The position numbers and the translations under genes were made by a program. Of a DNA stretch of 64,000 nucleotides, positions 45,264 through 59,376 are shown one piece after another (position 1 is the first letter of the stretch; each line of letters begins with the position of its first letter). The notes under the pieces were generated by a model. The model saw only the letters and a list, made by a program, of their open reading frames with translations, was not told where the DNA came from and did no database searches. This stretch comes from Nanohaloarchaea archaeon B1-Br10_U2g19 (GTDB taxonomy: Archaea; Nanohalarchaeota; Nanosalinia; Nanosalinales; Nanosalinaceae), in the NCBI GenBank assembly GCA_001563905.1, contig LKMO01000001.1, forward strand, positions 1 through 64,000. Reading direction: 5' to 3'.

Positions 45264-45848
45264 ATGGTAGATAAAAAACATATAGTGGAGTACCTTACTT
45301 TTGCAGATGTCCACGAAACTCTCAACGATGAAGACTCAGAAGAGTTTTACGATACGTTCTTCAACACTAAAGAAGACGGTACAGACTTCAGCCAGCCAGA
45401 CTACATACTACTACACGGAGGACCCGACACAAAAGAAGAATACCAACGTTTCTCGGCATTCGAAGACTTAATGCAGGTTACTGAGAACGACAAACTACCG
45501 TACCTAATTACAACACCTTCATACAAAAATAAGATAGATAACTCCTCTAAAGTAACAGAAAACGACTTCATATACGTCAAAATGGAGCCTGAAAGCACAC
45601 ATGAAGAACTTGAAAAGCTCTCAGAAAGAATAAAACCCGGGGAAACAGCTATATCAATAACCAACGACTACCACGTACCCCGAACAGAGTCATTGATGAA
45701 CAGTATGATAGAAGAAGATAACGAATACTTAGTAATAGGCGCGGAATACGATTTCAGAGAGACAGAATACGGAGACAAATGGAGATCAGAACTTGTAAGA
45801 ACAGTAATACCTCAAAATATTAAAGATCTAGGTAAAAAACTGCTTTAA
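45264..45848 (+). CDS. YdcF/DUF218-like protein
   Basis: A 194-residue alpha/beta protein. DYILLHGGPDTKEEYQRFSA resembles the glycine-rich first strand of YdcF (DUF218) proteins, and AISITNDYHVPRTESLMNSM matches the family's late T-x-YH-x-R motif. It lacks the membrane helix found in SanA-like members. Family members bind nucleotide-like cofactors such as SAM, with unknown function. It lies convergent with the 890-residue gene, three bases between the stops. Confidence 0.65.
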   Translation: MVDKKHIVEYLTFADVHETLNDEDSEEFYDTFFNTKEDGTDFSQPDYILLHGGPDTKEEYQRFSAFEDLMQVTENDKLPYLITTPSYKNKIDNSSKVTENDFIYVKMEPESTHEELEKLSERIKPGETAISITNDYHVPRTESLMNSMIEEDNEYLVIGAEYDFRETEYGDKWRSELVRTVIPQNIKDLGKKLL

Positions 45849-45851
45849 ACT

Positions 45852-48524
45852 TTATTTGTACTCTTCTCCCATCCAGTCACGAGGCTGATTACCTTCCTCA
45901 ATTGCAGCACTACTTGTATGGGTATGACCGAACTCTTCAGCGGAAAGAAGACCCTGAAGAGGATCAAAAGCATGTTCCTCAATCTTAGCCCACTCACGAT
46001 CATAAGTAGGACGATCCATACCAAAGAAGCGCGCCATCAACGCCTCTTTCTCATCTCTATACTCTTTGCCAGGATCAACCTTAGAAGGATCTAGCTCATC
46101 AGGTGTAACACCTAACTCTATAAGGTTCATAGCTACTCTAGCAATATACACCGTTCCTCTGTCGTCTCCGCCAACCTCGTACATGATATATGCTTTCTCG
46201 TCTTCGTTTCTTGCAAAACCCGCGTAAATCATCTTGTAAAGCTGTTCATAAAGCTGTGTGTCTCCAGGATCCCAAGGACCGTGAAGTGTCTCAGACTGAG
46301 AGGTCTCTAAACCGGCTCTCATCAGGTGCCACATACGTAGAATCTTGGCCAGAGGCTTGCTCTTATCGATTTTAATATCGTATTTCTCTGCTAAACTGCT
46401 TTCAGCAAGACTGGCTTCTTGTTCAATAAGCTCCTCCATAGTGTCCCAAGGATCATCTCCAAAGGTAGCGGTGTGTTCCAAGTCAATCGTAAATTTAGCA
46501 GGCATCTCATCAAGTTCGGGATGCATACTGTCTAATTCTTTTCTAGCAGTAATATTTATCGCTCTAGCTGCTGCAGCAATATCCTTTGGCCTCCAGATCT
46601 TATACATCTGCTGAGGACTACCGGGCATAGCTTCCAAGTTGACGCCTATACCGAACTTGTTCATCCATTCAATCCAAGTCATCTCAACTTCATTATGTTC
46701 TACTTCTTCACCACTGAAAGCAGTCTTTAGAATACGGTCGTTTAGCTTAAACCGTGCTTTGTTCTGCGTGAAATGGCTCCATACATATGCACCTGCTGAA
46801 GCCGCAGCAACATCTCTTTGAAACTCTTCATTCTCTTCTAACAAGTCAAGAAAACCTTTTTCATCTTCTTTTCCTCTAGGATGGAGGAGATCTATAGTCT
46901 CTCCTCTTTCTTCCTCCCATTTTTGTTTTACCAGCAGCTCCCAGAGGAATTTAGGTGCTTCCCAGCCTGTATGTCCTTTTTCGTTTTCCTCCTTTTCTGA
47001 GTCATAATCTGCTACATCCAGCCATGCAGGGATAATCTGGTATAAACTGTTAGACTCCATCCACATTTGTCGTTCAAAATTACGTATAAAGACTCTTAGG
47101 AAACGTTCGTATTGTTTTTCAGGATTTATTTCTTCATTTTTATCGTGTTTGAATGATTCTGGATCTCCTGCAAACATATTCGCTACTTCCTGTCTTAGAT
47201 CGGATTTATTGTCTCGGAATGCTTCTTCAGCTACTTTACCTTGAGGGATTTCCAGCTGTTGGGTTAAACCACTAACTTTCGCTTGAACAGGGATCAAAGA
47301 AACTTTTCTTTCATCTTCGGTGTCTTCTTCTCGCCAAAGTTTATCTAAAGCTTTTTCTATAGATTTTTTGGCTTGTTCCCACAATTTTTCTTGGAAGCCG
47401 TCCTCAGGTATCTTGAGATCAACTTCACCTCCATATCTTCTAGATCTGACCCGATCAAGCTCTTGAGACTCCATGAAATACAGCAGATTGGAAAGAGTTC
47501 TTAATTCTGAGAGCCTATATCTTTGGCTCAATGCGGCTCTAATAAAGTCGTCAAGATCTTTCAAATTACTTATAGATGTTAACTCGGCCTCACTCTCTAC
47601 AAGGCCAGCCAAAGCTGTGTTAGGAGGTATGGTTACAGGATTTTGAAACTCAAACTCTTCTTTAGGTAGCAAGGTCAGCCATTCTTTCTGTATTGCAGGA
47701 TCTGCAGCTGATACTGCAGAAATCACATCTGCTTTATCTTCTAAAGGATCTTTTCCATTTCCTCCCGTCATAGTGTTATAATATCTCTCAGCTACATCGT
47801 TCTGAGCTTTCCGCCATTCCTTGTCAAATTTAGGTGAGAAAGAAGAAAGGTTTTGGTAGTACTGATATTCGTTGTCTCCAAACTCTTCGGCTATAAACAC
47901 TCTGTAAAGTCGTCTAAGAAACTTAGGATTTTTGTAGATGTTTTTACCTTGTTCGGTTTTTTCTTCCATCACGTCTTCTTTCAGATCGGTCAAACTGTAT
48001 CCGAACGGGTCTAGTCCTGTTCCCCCAGCTCTCTCCTCTTCTAATGCAGGTAAAGGATCTGTGGAGATGTGAGGGTTTATACGGGTAATATTGAATCCTT
48101 CGAAGTTGTTGTCGTCTTTTTCTGATCTTTTTTCTACATCTCTTTTGAATGATGCGAACTGTTCTAAGTACTTAGTAAAGTAGTTGTGCGTAGGATCATA
48201 ACTCGCTCTGTATGTTGAAGTGTAGCCGACGCTTGGATCGCTGTGGATAGATATATCGATTTCAAGTCCGTTGATAACATTCAGCATTTTTTCTCGATCG
48301 ATTTGGAAGGTGGAAGGATTGTTGATTATTACTTCCATTACGCTTCCTCCTCGCTGTGCTAGGCTTCCTATACGCTCATCCATTGCTGAAGGCACGCCAG
48401 GCGCAATATCTAGTCCTGAGGTGTTACCTACTTCATAATTCAGGTCGGGAAAGCCTTGGTTCTCATACTTGTCTTCGGCTTCGAACTTCTCTTTCACCGC
48501 GTCTAGAATAAATTTGAAGCTCAT
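45852..48524 (-). CDS. Giant endonuclease IV/xylose-isomerase-like TIM barrel with large insertion
   Basis: An 890-residue acidic protein, not known to me by name. Its ends look like a divided TIM barrel of the AP endonuclease 2 superfamily. Presumed metal-site residues are all present: His94 (ISIHSDPSVG), His152 (INPHISTDP), Glu631 (VNLEAMPG), Asp681/His684 (TIDLEHTATFGDD), His733 (MWHLMRAG), His748 (LHGPWDPGD) and Glu783 (YEVGG). The same order appears in the 251-residue TIM barrel at 58621. Residues about 165-620 are an insertion, helical and charged. Its ATG overlaps the stop of the upstream 545-residue gene. Substrate unknown; a phosphodiester or sugar is possible. Confidence 0.75.
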   Translation of the reverse strand: MSFKFILDAVKEKFEAEDKYENQGFPDLNYEVGNTSGLDIAPGVPSAMDERIGSLAQRGGSVMEVIINNPSTFQIDREKMLNVINGLEIDISIHSDPSVGYTSTYRASYDPTHNYFTKYLEQFASFKRDVEKRSEKDDNNFEGFNITRINPHISTDPLPALEEERAGGTGLDPFGYSLTDLKEDVMEEKTEQGKNIYKNPKFLRRLYRVFIAEEFGDNEYQYYQNLSSFSPKFDKEWRKAQNDVAERYYNTMTGGNGKDPLEDKADVISAVSAADPAIQKEWLTLLPKEEFEFQNPVTIPPNTALAGLVESEAELTSISNLKDLDDFIRAALSQRYRLSELRTLSNLLYFMESQELDRVRSRRYGGEVDLKIPEDGFQEKLWEQAKKSIEKALDKLWREEDTEDERKVSLIPVQAKVSGLTQQLEIPQGKVAEEAFRDNKSDLRQEVANMFAGDPESFKHDKNEEINPEKQYERFLRVFIRNFERQMWMESNSLYQIIPAWLDVADYDSEKEENEKGHTGWEAPKFLWELLVKQKWEEERGETIDLLHPRGKEDEKGFLDLLEENEEFQRDVAAASAGAYVWSHFTQNKARFKLNDRILKTAFSGEEVEHNEVEMTWIEWMNKFGIGVNLEAMPGSPQQMYKIWRPKDIAAAARAINITARKELDSMHPELDEMPAKFTIDLEHTATFGDDPWDTMEELIEQEASLAESSLAEKYDIKIDKSKPLAKILRMWHLMRAGLETSQSETLHGPWDPGDTQLYEQLYKMIYAGFARNEDEKAYIMYEVGGDDRGTVYIARVAMNLIELGVTPDELDPSKVDPGKEYRDEKEALMARFFGMDRPTYDREWAKIEEHAFDPLQGLLSAEEFGHTHTSSAAIEEGNQPRDWMGEEYK

Positions 48525-50161
48525 TATTTCATCGTATGGAGACCCATTCCAAGTTTCAGGTCGTAGTAGTAGCTGAATTTTAACTCGGTTTTCAGATCGC
48601 TTAAAGGACTTAGATCTCCTAAGTAGTATTCGTCGTAGTTACCCGTGAACTTTCTTACAGCCTTTTTGAAATCTTCCTCTTTGGACCCGCCCCCGTTTTC
48701 ACTGTCTCCATCTCCTTTTGAGTAAGAGGTATCAAGTATATTATCTAAAGCCTCTAGATATCCGTCGCCGTATTTTTCAGCTATAAGTTTTGGAGAGTCA
48801 AAACCGTCTTCAACTCTTCTAATTGTTGAAGAAAGTTCTAAAGGCGGTTTTTCTTCTACTTCTTCACCTATTTTTTCCCGGAGCGCTCTTACACTGATTT
48901 CTTTCTTGTTGCGAGCGTCTTTAAGATCTTTACCTTCTCCTTTATCGAAATCTCCGGTGTAATCATCCATTAACTGTTCGAAAAGCTCTTTACTCCGGTT
49001 TATCTTTTTTTCAATAATATTCTCGAAAACGTGTTTACAGACGATCGCAGGTCTCCAGAAGACTACTGCAACAGTAGGACCTTCTACAGGACTGTTAGGG
49101 TTTTCTCCGCCCGAAATATTTACATGGACGGCGTGTATATGCACAACTTTGTAATGAGTGATTTCTTTTTCGTTATCTGATTCTACTAATGCACCTTCCT
49201 CTTTTACTAAGCCTTGGTGAGCTATAAACTCGAGCTCTTTGTACATGGTTGCGTAGCCAACGAAGCTTCCGTACTCGTTTATATCGTTGCCTATCTCGTC
49301 TCGCGTCTTCTGGTTTATCATAACCATGTCTCGGGCGTAAGGTTCAAGCCATTCTTTGGTTTCTTCTATCGCTCTTTCGATACGTCTAAGCTCTTTTTTC
49401 AGGTCGTTAAGCTTTCTCTGTATTTCGCTGCCGTACATGTCCTTCCATTTTTCGAACATGGTGTACTTCTTTTTCAGTATTGCTTTTTCGTTTGCAGGCA
49501 GGTTTGATAGTTTTCCGCCTTCCTCAAGATCTTCTAGAGACTCCATCTCATTGAAATCGGATACGATTGTAGGGTAGATATTGTTGTCTCTGAGGAATCT
49601 CAGGGCCTGTTCGTCAGCTCCTTGACCTCCGGCACCAGCACCGTCCACCAACTGTACAAAGTCTCCTTTGATTACGACATCGTCTCCTGTCTGAAGATCT
49701 TCTACACGTGAACGCAGCTTTCTAATATCGTGTTGCAGTAAGTGTTTTGATTTTCTGAGCTGTTCCAAACCTTGCATACTGGTCTTGATATTCTGTTCTG
49801 CCTGTTGTCTTCTCTGGTTCATTTCTTGGTGCATTGTGTTCTGAGGGCTGACAAAGATCTTCTCATCAGTTTTCACAATATCCCAGTCTAGATCTGTGTC
49901 AAACTTGTCTGCCGCTACCAAAATAAACGTGTAAGGCATTCCTTGGCTTCCAGAAACAACTTTAACGTTTTTATAAGGATCTCCCATAACCCCTATGAAA
50001 GAATAAGGGTCATCTGCATCTTCTTGAGCCTTACTAAGATCTTCTAAACTACTTATTTCACCGCTCTCTATATCTTCTGCAAACGGCGAGCTCCCGTTAA
50101 CTTCGAAAACATGTCCAAAGTCGCATGTATCGTCTTCGTCCCCAGAGTGTCCAGAGCTCAT
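48524..50161 (-). CDS. Large coiled-coil protein coupled to the TIM-barrel gene
   Basis: A 545-residue protein unrecognised by me. Residues 1-105 are acidic then beta-rich (SFIGVMGDPYKNVKVVSGSQ). Residues 108-157 and 225-275 are strong coiled coils that could fold back on each other around a strand domain (VVIKGDFVQLVDGAGAGGQG). About 325-385 is a beta region with HYKVVHIHAVHVNISGGENP and GPTVAVVFWRPAIV. The C-terminal third is helical with a Gly/Ser/Asp linker. The stop codon TAA overlaps the next ATG (TAATG). No Walker or nuclease motif seen. Probably a structural partner of the 890-residue protein. Confidence 0.75.
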   Translation of the reverse strand: MSSGHSGDEDDTCDFGHVFEVNGSSPFAEDIESGEISSLEDLSKAQEDADDPYSFIGVMGDPYKNVKVVSGSQGMPYTFILVAADKFDTDLDWDIVKTDEKIFVSPQNTMHQEMNQRRQQAEQNIKTSMQGLEQLRKSKHLLQHDIRKLRSRVEDLQTGDDVVIKGDFVQLVDGAGAGGQGADEQALRFLRDNNIYPTIVSDFNEMESLEDLEEGGKLSNLPANEKAILKKKYTMFEKWKDMYGSEIQRKLNDLKKELRRIERAIEETKEWLEPYARDMVMINQKTRDEIGNDINEYGSFVGYATMYKELEFIAHQGLVKEEGALVESDNEKEITHYKVVHIHAVHVNISGGENPNSPVEGPTVAVVFWRPAIVCKHVFENIIEKKINRSKELFEQLMDDYTGDFDKGEGKDLKDARNKKEISVRALREKIGEEVEEKPPLELSSTIRRVEDGFDSPKLIAEKYGDGYLEALDNILDTSYSKGDGDSENGGGSKEEDFKKAVRKFTGNYDEYYLGDLSPLSDLKTELKFSYYYDLKLGMGLHTMK

Positions 50162-50258: not shown

Positions 50259-50816
50259 ATGAGTGTCTTTGACGACTTAAAAGATTCTTTAAACGGATCG
50301 GACCGTTCTAACAATAGTTCCGGGAATAACTCTTTTGATTCAGACTTCAGCTCGGATCTCGACTCCGATCTAGATATGGATTCAGGACCAAGTACAGAGA
50401 GAAATAATTCTCCTCCTAGACAGGAGCCGCAGGACAGTCCAAGAAATCCTCAGTCAAGAACCTCAGAGCCTAATAACCAGATGCAAGGAGGACCCAGACA
50501 GACCCGTAATAGAGGCCAAAAACGTTCACAGAACCCGGGTCAGAACTCTCAAAGACAGAACAGTGTAGATACACCTAATGCTCAAGCAGGAAGACCTCAG
50601 AAAGGTTCTCCAAAACCTCAGTTAAGCGGTCAGACACAGAGGAAAATGGAGAACGCAGGACTGGAACAGAATACAAGATCCGGTGGTCAAGGACAGACAG
50701 AGCCCGTATCTAACCAGAGATCAGATTTTGAAGAGCTAAAGGCACAGAACGAACAGATAATTGAGTTGTTGAAAAGACTGAATCAAAGCCTTAATAATGG
50801 TAGACACCAACGTTAG
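50259..50816 (+). CDS. Low-complexity Asn/Ser/Gln-rich protein with C-terminal helix
   Basis: A 185-residue protein. The first 12 residues are MSVFDDLKDSLN; then comes a Ser/Asp-rich run (SDFSSDLDSDLDMDSG) and a long Gln/Asn/Pro/Arg stretch (QNPGQNSQRQNSVDTPNAQA), clearly disordered and net basic. It ends in a heptad-like helix ELKAQNEQIIELLKRLNQSL. Both termini resemble the 103-residue protein at 1284-1595, so the two look like paralogues with different linkers. It is divergent from the 545-residue gene by about 100 bp and eight bases upstream of a 53-residue gene. Phase separation or scaffolding is speculation. Confidence 0.7.
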   Translation: MSVFDDLKDSLNGSDRSNNSSGNNSFDSDFSSDLDSDLDMDSGPSTERNNSPPRQEPQDSPRNPQSRTSEPNNQMQGGPRQTRNRGQKRSQNPGQNSQRQNSVDTPNAQAGRPQKGSPKPQLSGQTQRKMENAGLEQNTRSGGQGQTEPVSNQRSDFEELKAQNEQIIELLKRLNQSLNNGRHQR

Positions 50817-58620: not shown

Positions 58621-59376
58621 CTATGCCTCATTAAACCAGCCTTCCAACTTCTGTTTTGACAGTAGCTGGTAGTCGTTGTCTTCCGTAAAGATCTCCATAC
58701 ACCAGGTTCCTTCGAAGTCTTCTAATCTATCGATTAGAGGCTGGAACTCAATCTCTGAGCTTCCAAGCGGTAGATGCATATCTCGTCCTTCACGTGTATC
58801 GGTCAAATGAAGGTGTGAAATCAGGTGGGAGTATTCTTCAAGAAATTCTTCTGTTTCTTCCTGTCCGGCTTCTGAGAAAGCATGTCCTGTATCGAAACAC
58901 ATGGAAACATTTAGTTCTTCAAGTAAAGGTCCTAGCTCAAACAGTTCTAATCCTCTCCACTGTCCAAGATTTTCGAAACAGACTTCGACTCCGTGTTTCT
59001 CTCCTAGTTTATCCAGTTTTTCGATTTGTTCAGGAAGTTTTTCTATCTCATCCTCAGCATCATCATATCGCATATCGGCGTGTGCCACAACTTTTTCTGC
59101 TCCAAGCTGTTTAGCGAACTTCATCATACGTTCATGGTAGTTCAGAAGTCCTTCATTGATCTCAGGTACTGAGGTGGATAAAGGCTGTTTGAAAGGTAAG
59201 TGAACTGTTATTTCAAAATCTTTGTCTTCTAAAGCCTTTCTAACCTTTTCAGATTCTATCTCTTCTACAGGTCGTTCATGTTCTCCTATCCCGAACTCTA
59301 TGAAGTCAAATTCTTCTGAAATAGAGTTTATATGTTCTATTAGATCTCCTTCTGGACCTAGACTGATTCCTATCAT
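58621..59376 (-). CDS. TIM-barrel sugar isomerase/AP endonuclease 2 family protein
   Basis: A 251-residue xylose-isomerase-like TIM barrel. Metal-site residues occur in family order: GIGEHE, VHLPF, AHADMRY, CFENLGQWRG, CFDTGHAF, HLHLTDTREGRDMHLPLG and MEIFTED. Members are sugar isomerases, epimerases or endonuclease IV; the absence of extra DNA-binding loops favours a small substrate. Its ATG overlaps the valS stop codon by four bases. It is useful as a compact model for the 890-residue protein at 45852. Confidence 0.87.
   Translation of the reverse strand: MIGISLGPEGDLIEHINSISEEFDFIEFGIGEHERPVEEIESEKVRKALEDKDFEITVHLPFKQPLSTSVPEINEGLLNYHERMMKFAKQLGAEKVVAHADMRYDDAEDEIEKLPEQIEKLDKLGEKHGVEVCFENLGQWRGLELFELGPLLEELNVSMCFDTGHAFSEAGQEETEEFLEEYSHLISHLHLTDTREGRDMHLPLGSSEIEFQPLIDRLEDFEGTWCMEIFTEDNDYQLLSKQKLEGWFNEA

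Follow-up and report, generated by a model that had tools for sequence, protein, structure and literature searches.

Endonuclease IV, which cuts abasic DNA, is a compact protein of under about 300 residues that holds a trinuclear zinc site through the ligands His69, His109, Glu145, Asp179, His182, His216, Asp229, His231 and Glu261, and many members of the Pfam family PF01261 are isomerases or epimerases that use an E-D-H-E portion of the same ligand set. In the sugar isomerases and epimerases these four residues hold a single metal, the histidine ligands of strands 3 and 4 not being required, and a barrel of the same general fold that comes with a dedicated partner gene is found in MbnB/MbnC (DUF692). 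Here, we describe a pair of genes, A and B, in the window, by which we mean the whole 64,000-nucleotide stretch analysed from the assembly of Nanohaloarchaea archaeon B1-Br10_U2g19 (663 kb in 35 contigs, estimated completeness 80%). Several small-genome archaeal phyla, and not Nanohaloarchaeota alone, have this pair among their core genes. It has apparently not been reported in that capacity, no description of A or of the A-B pair having been found in the searchable part of the open-licence literature. At a probability of roughly 45%, we propose that it encodes a DPANN (small-genome archaeal) multi-metal phosphodiesterase or phosphoesterase together with a dedicated coiled-coil partner.

Both genes lie on the minus strand, where B (48524..50161), an open reading frame for a 545-residue protein modelled with a coiled-coil hairpin, comes first, and A (45852..48524), an open reading frame for an 890-residue predicted metalloprotein of the PF01261 type, follows directly downstream. 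The stop codon of B and the start codon of A have one base in common (TAATG; junction ...ATGAAATAATGAGC...), and we infer that the two are co-transcribed. An earlier sequence-only reading of this DNA had reported this overlap and the lengths and coordinates of both frames, all of which came out the same when re-derived from the sequence; it had also spoken of a ‘two-component system’, a term that holds for a two-gene module and in no sense beyond that. Further along, a 412-residue minimal nucleotidyltransferase with a helical C-terminal part (PF01909; 43966..45204, minus strand) is separated from A by a 194-residue gene on the opposite strand (45264..45848, plus strand; weak DUF218), which has a counterpart at the same place in only a few relatives. 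On the other side, B is adjoined by a divergent gene for 185 residues (50259-50816, plus strand) of Ser/Asn/Gln/Arg-rich low complexity with a C-terminal coiled coil, and a similar gene occupies this position in several Nanohaloarchaeota. The window also holds a further PF01261 gene, of ordinary size (251 residues; 58621-59376, minus strand).

The reading of A as a split xylose-isomerase/endonuclease-IV-like TIM barrel is supported by sequence profiles and by structure prediction. A TIM barrel had been proposed from the sequence, and a barrel is what the AlphaFold model returned (19 sequences; pLDDT 80, pTM 0.77), with eight strands, mostly well scored, predicted in (beta/alpha)8 order, and homologues of A match PF01261. 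The first half of the predicted barrel (residues 25-182; 47979..48452, minus strand, as for all parts of A) would comprise strands 30-35, 62-66, 90-94 and 148-154, and the second half (residues 587-800; 46125..46766) strands 627-632, 676-681, 729-734 and 778-782; in relatives these halves match PF01261 at about 8-89 and 113-248, respectively. The large insertion claimed between the second and third ligands is likewise present, with a gap of 478 residues, and the model and homologue comparison place between strands 4 and 5 a mostly helical insert (residues 183-586; 46767..47978) of about 400 residues, its size among homologues being 144-452. A C-terminal extension (residues 801-890; 45855..46124), delimited from the model and an alignment of 54 sequences, is conserved though modelled as disordered (Ala874 in 47/54, Glu887 in 44/54). 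The best Foldseek matches of the model are xylose-isomerase-like barrels (ribulose and psicose 3-epimerases, YcjR and endonuclease IV), with a probability near 1.0 for many, E-values of 0.02-0.1, low TM-scores and around half of the split barrel aligned.

The window's A protein is placed in the PF01261 superfamily through a chain of homologues, since on its own it belongs to no family in Pfam, NCBIfam or PDB sequence searches; a profile limited to its phylum likewise gives coiled-coil noise only. This Nanohaloarchaeota profile reaches 36 other archaeal genomes (E-values from 1e-26 to 0.05), where nearly all matching frames have 520-896 residues, and lengths in the family run from about 510 to 908. 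When ten relatives were scanned singly against Pfam, PF01261 was found in seven and lay above the cut-off in four, most matches being divided in two by the insert. Homologues of A reach E-values of 8.9e-17, 4.5e-21 and 1.2e-11, and bit scores of 76, 62, 45, 36, 35 and 33 against a cut-off of 31.1, which two more distant members of 621 and 641 residues also exceed. The label ‘unrecognised’ given to both proteins by the sequence-only reading is thus right for B and for the window's own A, but not for the distant homologues of A, which are recognised as PF01261. An insert-free barrel profile built from 11 divergent members matches MJ1311 over the full barrel at 1.6e-9, endonuclease IV of T. maritima at 1.8e-4 and the African swine fever virus AP endonuclease at 0.006, D-tagatose 3-epimerase scoring only 0.35. 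Among single members, one matches the phosphodiesterase CbiR (NF041277) at 4.9e-10 and one matches deoxyribonuclease IV at 0.0056. As to a viral origin, no relative of A was found in IMG/VR.

The ligand residues of A were compared with those of endonuclease IV. By conservation and profile alignment, His94 (48243..48245), His152 (48069..48071), Glu631 (46632..46634), Asp681-x-x-His684 (46473..46484), His733 (46326..46328) and His748 (46281..46283), all on the minus strand, take the positions of His69, His109, Glu145, Asp179/His182, His216 and His231, a register obtained with hhalign against a shallow alignment of same-phylum endonuclease IVs (probability 26%, P = 7e-4). Glu783 (46176..46178, minus strand), at the end of strand 8 in the model, is conserved and takes the place of Glu261 by order, as it lies beyond the profile-aligned stretch. 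Eight of the nine endonuclease IV zinc ligands are therefore present by order and seven also by alignment register, the missing one being Asp229, a ligand of the third zinc, whose position is Thr746 in A and His, Gly, Thr or Pro in relatives, never Asp; for this reason A is not filed as an endonuclease IV. The ligand order of endonuclease IV and xylose isomerase, which had been read from the sequence, extends across the family, with His94, His152, Glu631, Asp681, His733, His748 and Glu783 identical in 54/54 sequences of an alignment that goes down to some 16-20% identity, and with His684 in 51/54 and Glu683 in 52/54. Six of these (His94, Glu631, Asp681, His733, His748 and Glu783) are invariant in the 23 Nanohaloarchaeota sequences, and His152 is absent from that set only at a masked stretch of one assembly. 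In the model, His94, His152, Glu631, Asp681, His733 and Glu783 lie at or just past the ends of strands 3-8, while His684 and His748 are placed in the loops after strands, as in endonuclease IV; strand positions and register together suggest that the ligands would meet in one metal site.

Such a ligand order alone is no proof of hydrolysis, because E-D-H-E is also used by isomerases and epimerases, and A might instead be a sugar or sugar-phosphate isomerase or epimerase of the same superfamily, with B as a scaffold. This is what the top Foldseek matches, L-ribulose and D-psicose 3-epimerases, would favour, and Glu631, Asp681, His733 and Glu783 are, we take it, the four ligands that 3-epimerases use; the structural matches and the loss of Asp229 both count against a hydrolase. 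However, the barrel profile of A prefers endonuclease IV and MJ1311 to D-tagatose 3-epimerase by several orders of magnitude, and His94, His152 and His748, needless for a single-metal epimerase, are kept by every aligned sequence. We consider an isomerase or epimerase unlikely.

The partner protein is less sharply predicted. The model of B is of moderate confidence (pLDDT 73, pTM 0.53) and consists of a small mixed domain, a coiled-coil hairpin (residues 109-281; 49319..49837, minus strand), a beta-rich domain and a helical C-terminus. Its two long helices (109-158 and 223-281) agree with the two long coiled coils noticed earlier, as does the absence of a recognised domain: B belongs to no Pfam or NCBIfam family, resembles no PDB or viral fold convincingly, and gives only weak PHROG matches spread over unrelated families. 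Eleven hairpin residues (His144, Asp145, Arg147, Phe168, Asp173, Pro197, Phe203, Leu229, Lys232, Trp239 and Pro274) are each conserved in 36/36 sequences and, if the predicted helices pack antiparallel, would cluster mostly towards the tip. A test with hhalign gave no support (P 0.1-0.5) for the idea that the coiled coil interrupts a c3-type domain forming the core of B. A role in surface assembly, also suggested from the sequence, finds no support, since a hydropathy scan of the A and B proteins of Nanohaloarchaeota gave no transmembrane segment in any of them; isolated hydrophobic stretches were present in four more distant members.

Relatives bear out the conserved linkage of the two genes, most strictly within the phylum. 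All 18 Nanohaloarchaeota loci that show B have it directly upstream of A on the same strand, and the three A loci lacking it are two contig ends and one second partial copy of A within one assembly. In Nanosalinarum J07AB56 (L094:6203-7875, L095:7980-9152), B is in two open frames and a second, partial A lies elsewhere on the scaffold, which may reflect an assembly error or chimera. Among 33 A loci outside Nanohaloarchaeota, B is directly upstream in 17, close and divergent in two, and absent from the fetched stretch in 14, so the tight coupling is not universal; where the two are adjacent, they overlap or are at most 12 nt apart in 30 of 35 pairs. A nucleotidyltransferase (PF01909) is linked to the pair at 36/54 loci and, outside Nanohaloarchaeota, is often duplicated in tandem; its identity as an MNT protein is clear (2.3e-7 and 3.8e-8), whereas HEPN reaches only 0.023, in one member. 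Its GS...DxD motif is invariant in 43/43 sequences, and the same 43 have Gln98 where a third catalytic acid might be expected. Outside Nanohaloarchaeota, B is often flanked by a divergent tandem pair of proteins of about 175 residues and a four-helix membrane protein; across L102-L134 (e.g. L124:5122-6624, L132:9056-10006) the tandem pair, which has no Pfam family, adjoins B, and the recurrent membrane protein has roughly 110 residues and about four spans.

The distribution of the pair is that of a core gene set. Within Nanohaloarchaeota, A is present in 26/28 genomes and B in 27/28, all 12 good-quality genomes included, and close homologues occur in the named records SG9, M3_22, J07AB43 and J07AB56, among others. 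With wider profiles, A is strong in 65 and B in 69 of 394 archaeal genomes, 62 having both, three A only and seven B only, a co-occurrence with Fisher p-values of 3e-60 overall and 5e-40 outside Nanohaloarchaeota in a test that ignores relatedness. Most of the ten single-gene genomes are less than 90% complete, and the complete ones come from a group with divergent A. In a second phylum (G306), A is found in 101/106 genomes and B in 103/106 (38/39 each among the best), and in a third (G102) A is found in 19/20. A large fourth phylum (G248) has divergent B in at least 82/195 genomes, a lower bound because the E-values are weak, with divergent split barrels near B in both loci inspected. Most of the divergent B relatives at L141-L149 (about 510-570 residues) come from this group, and the two inspected have in their vicinity split PF01261 barrels of 620-640 residues with a common LWS-x-VPLE tail. 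Nearly all positive genomes are of 0.4-1.9 Mb, one of 2.2 Mb having 8% contamination, and from their small size we infer that those outside Nanohaloarchaeota are DPANN.

The pair may have the DNA-processing role that the sequence-only reading had raised, one form of which would make A-B an endonuclease complex acting on AP sites or other damage in DNA repair, the coiled coil of B serving to bridge DNA. The endonuclease-IV register and profile similarity of A speak for this, and one B homologue shows a weak resemblance to SMC-related proteins, for which its coiled coil probably accounts. We find this version doubtful, as Nanohaloarchaeota genomes encode an ordinary endonuclease IV separately, that of the window genome lying on another contig (G000:C23), and the recurrent neighbours of the pair are not repair genes. 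The separate endonuclease IV also led us to reject A as a replacement for that enzyme. By analogy with MbnB/MbnC, A could be an oxidative multi-metal enzyme whose substrate is a peptide that B presents, the fold and the dedicated partner gene being comparable; this is very improbable, the A members scanned having no DUF692 match in Pfam and the pair having no conserved peptide precursor gene beside it among frames of at least 70 residues. We give very little credence to a reading in which A-B is a scaffold of some cell structure and its barrel a structural remnant, much as the helical insert and coiled coil might suggest it: no other residues of A are as well conserved as its metal ligands, even in members under 20% identical.

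As a phosphodiesterase or phosphoesterase, A would act in the cytoplasm, coordinating two or three metal ions in its xylose-isomerase-like barrel with the endonuclease-IV ligand set, and the bond hydrolysed would probably be a phosphodiester or phosphoester. The helical insert would lie on the metal-site face, between strands 4 and 5, where it probably influences how substrate gets in and also binds the partner; the B hairpin with its conserved tip is probably either an obligate partner bound to A or a bringer of substrate. The gene pair would yield an A-B complex in which insert and partner set the substrate, candidates being nucleic acid or a phosphate-linked small molecule. More broadly, we tentatively suggest that A-B, often with the nucleotidyltransferase, is a core, undescribed DPANN enzymatic complex with a reaction of its own, present in nearly all genomes of at least three phylum-level groups, divergent in a fourth and absent from the sampled free-living archaea. 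Many core genes are missing from these streamlined archaea, most of which depend on a host, yet the pair is kept almost without exception, and a lineage-marking gene set with an intact, assayable predicted metal site would offer a handle on needs that free-living archaea do not share.

Set against known systems, A has the strand order and ligand set of PF01261 (AP_endonuc_2), whose curated cut-off its homologues exceed, but its barrel is interrupted by the insert, its C-terminus is extended by a conserved segment and it has a partner gene. With endonuclease IV it has eight of nine zinc-ligand positions and a profile match in common, but it lacks the Asp of the third zinc and is around three times longer. 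The uncharacterised MJ1311 (PDB 3wqo), the best sequence match of the insert-free barrel, is a 293-residue chain that, unlike A, has no insert. CbiR, a cobamide-remodelling phosphodiesterase, is matched by the barrel of one distant A member and not by the window's A, and we know of no insert or B-type partner in it. Two unexplained DPANN-specific families have been listed in a table from which A and the A-B pair are absent, namely cls.004259 (NEQ050, MNT fused to HEPN) and cls.004340 (NEQ484, alpha helical) (PMC6393860). The linked nucleotidyltransferase has the same MNT and helical make-up as the first, so that by description the NEQ050 family is probably part of the A/B locus, a linkage that would supply context for an unexplained gene, and B would fit the ‘alpha helical protein’ of the second, so that the NEQ484 family, again by description, might belong to the locus as well.
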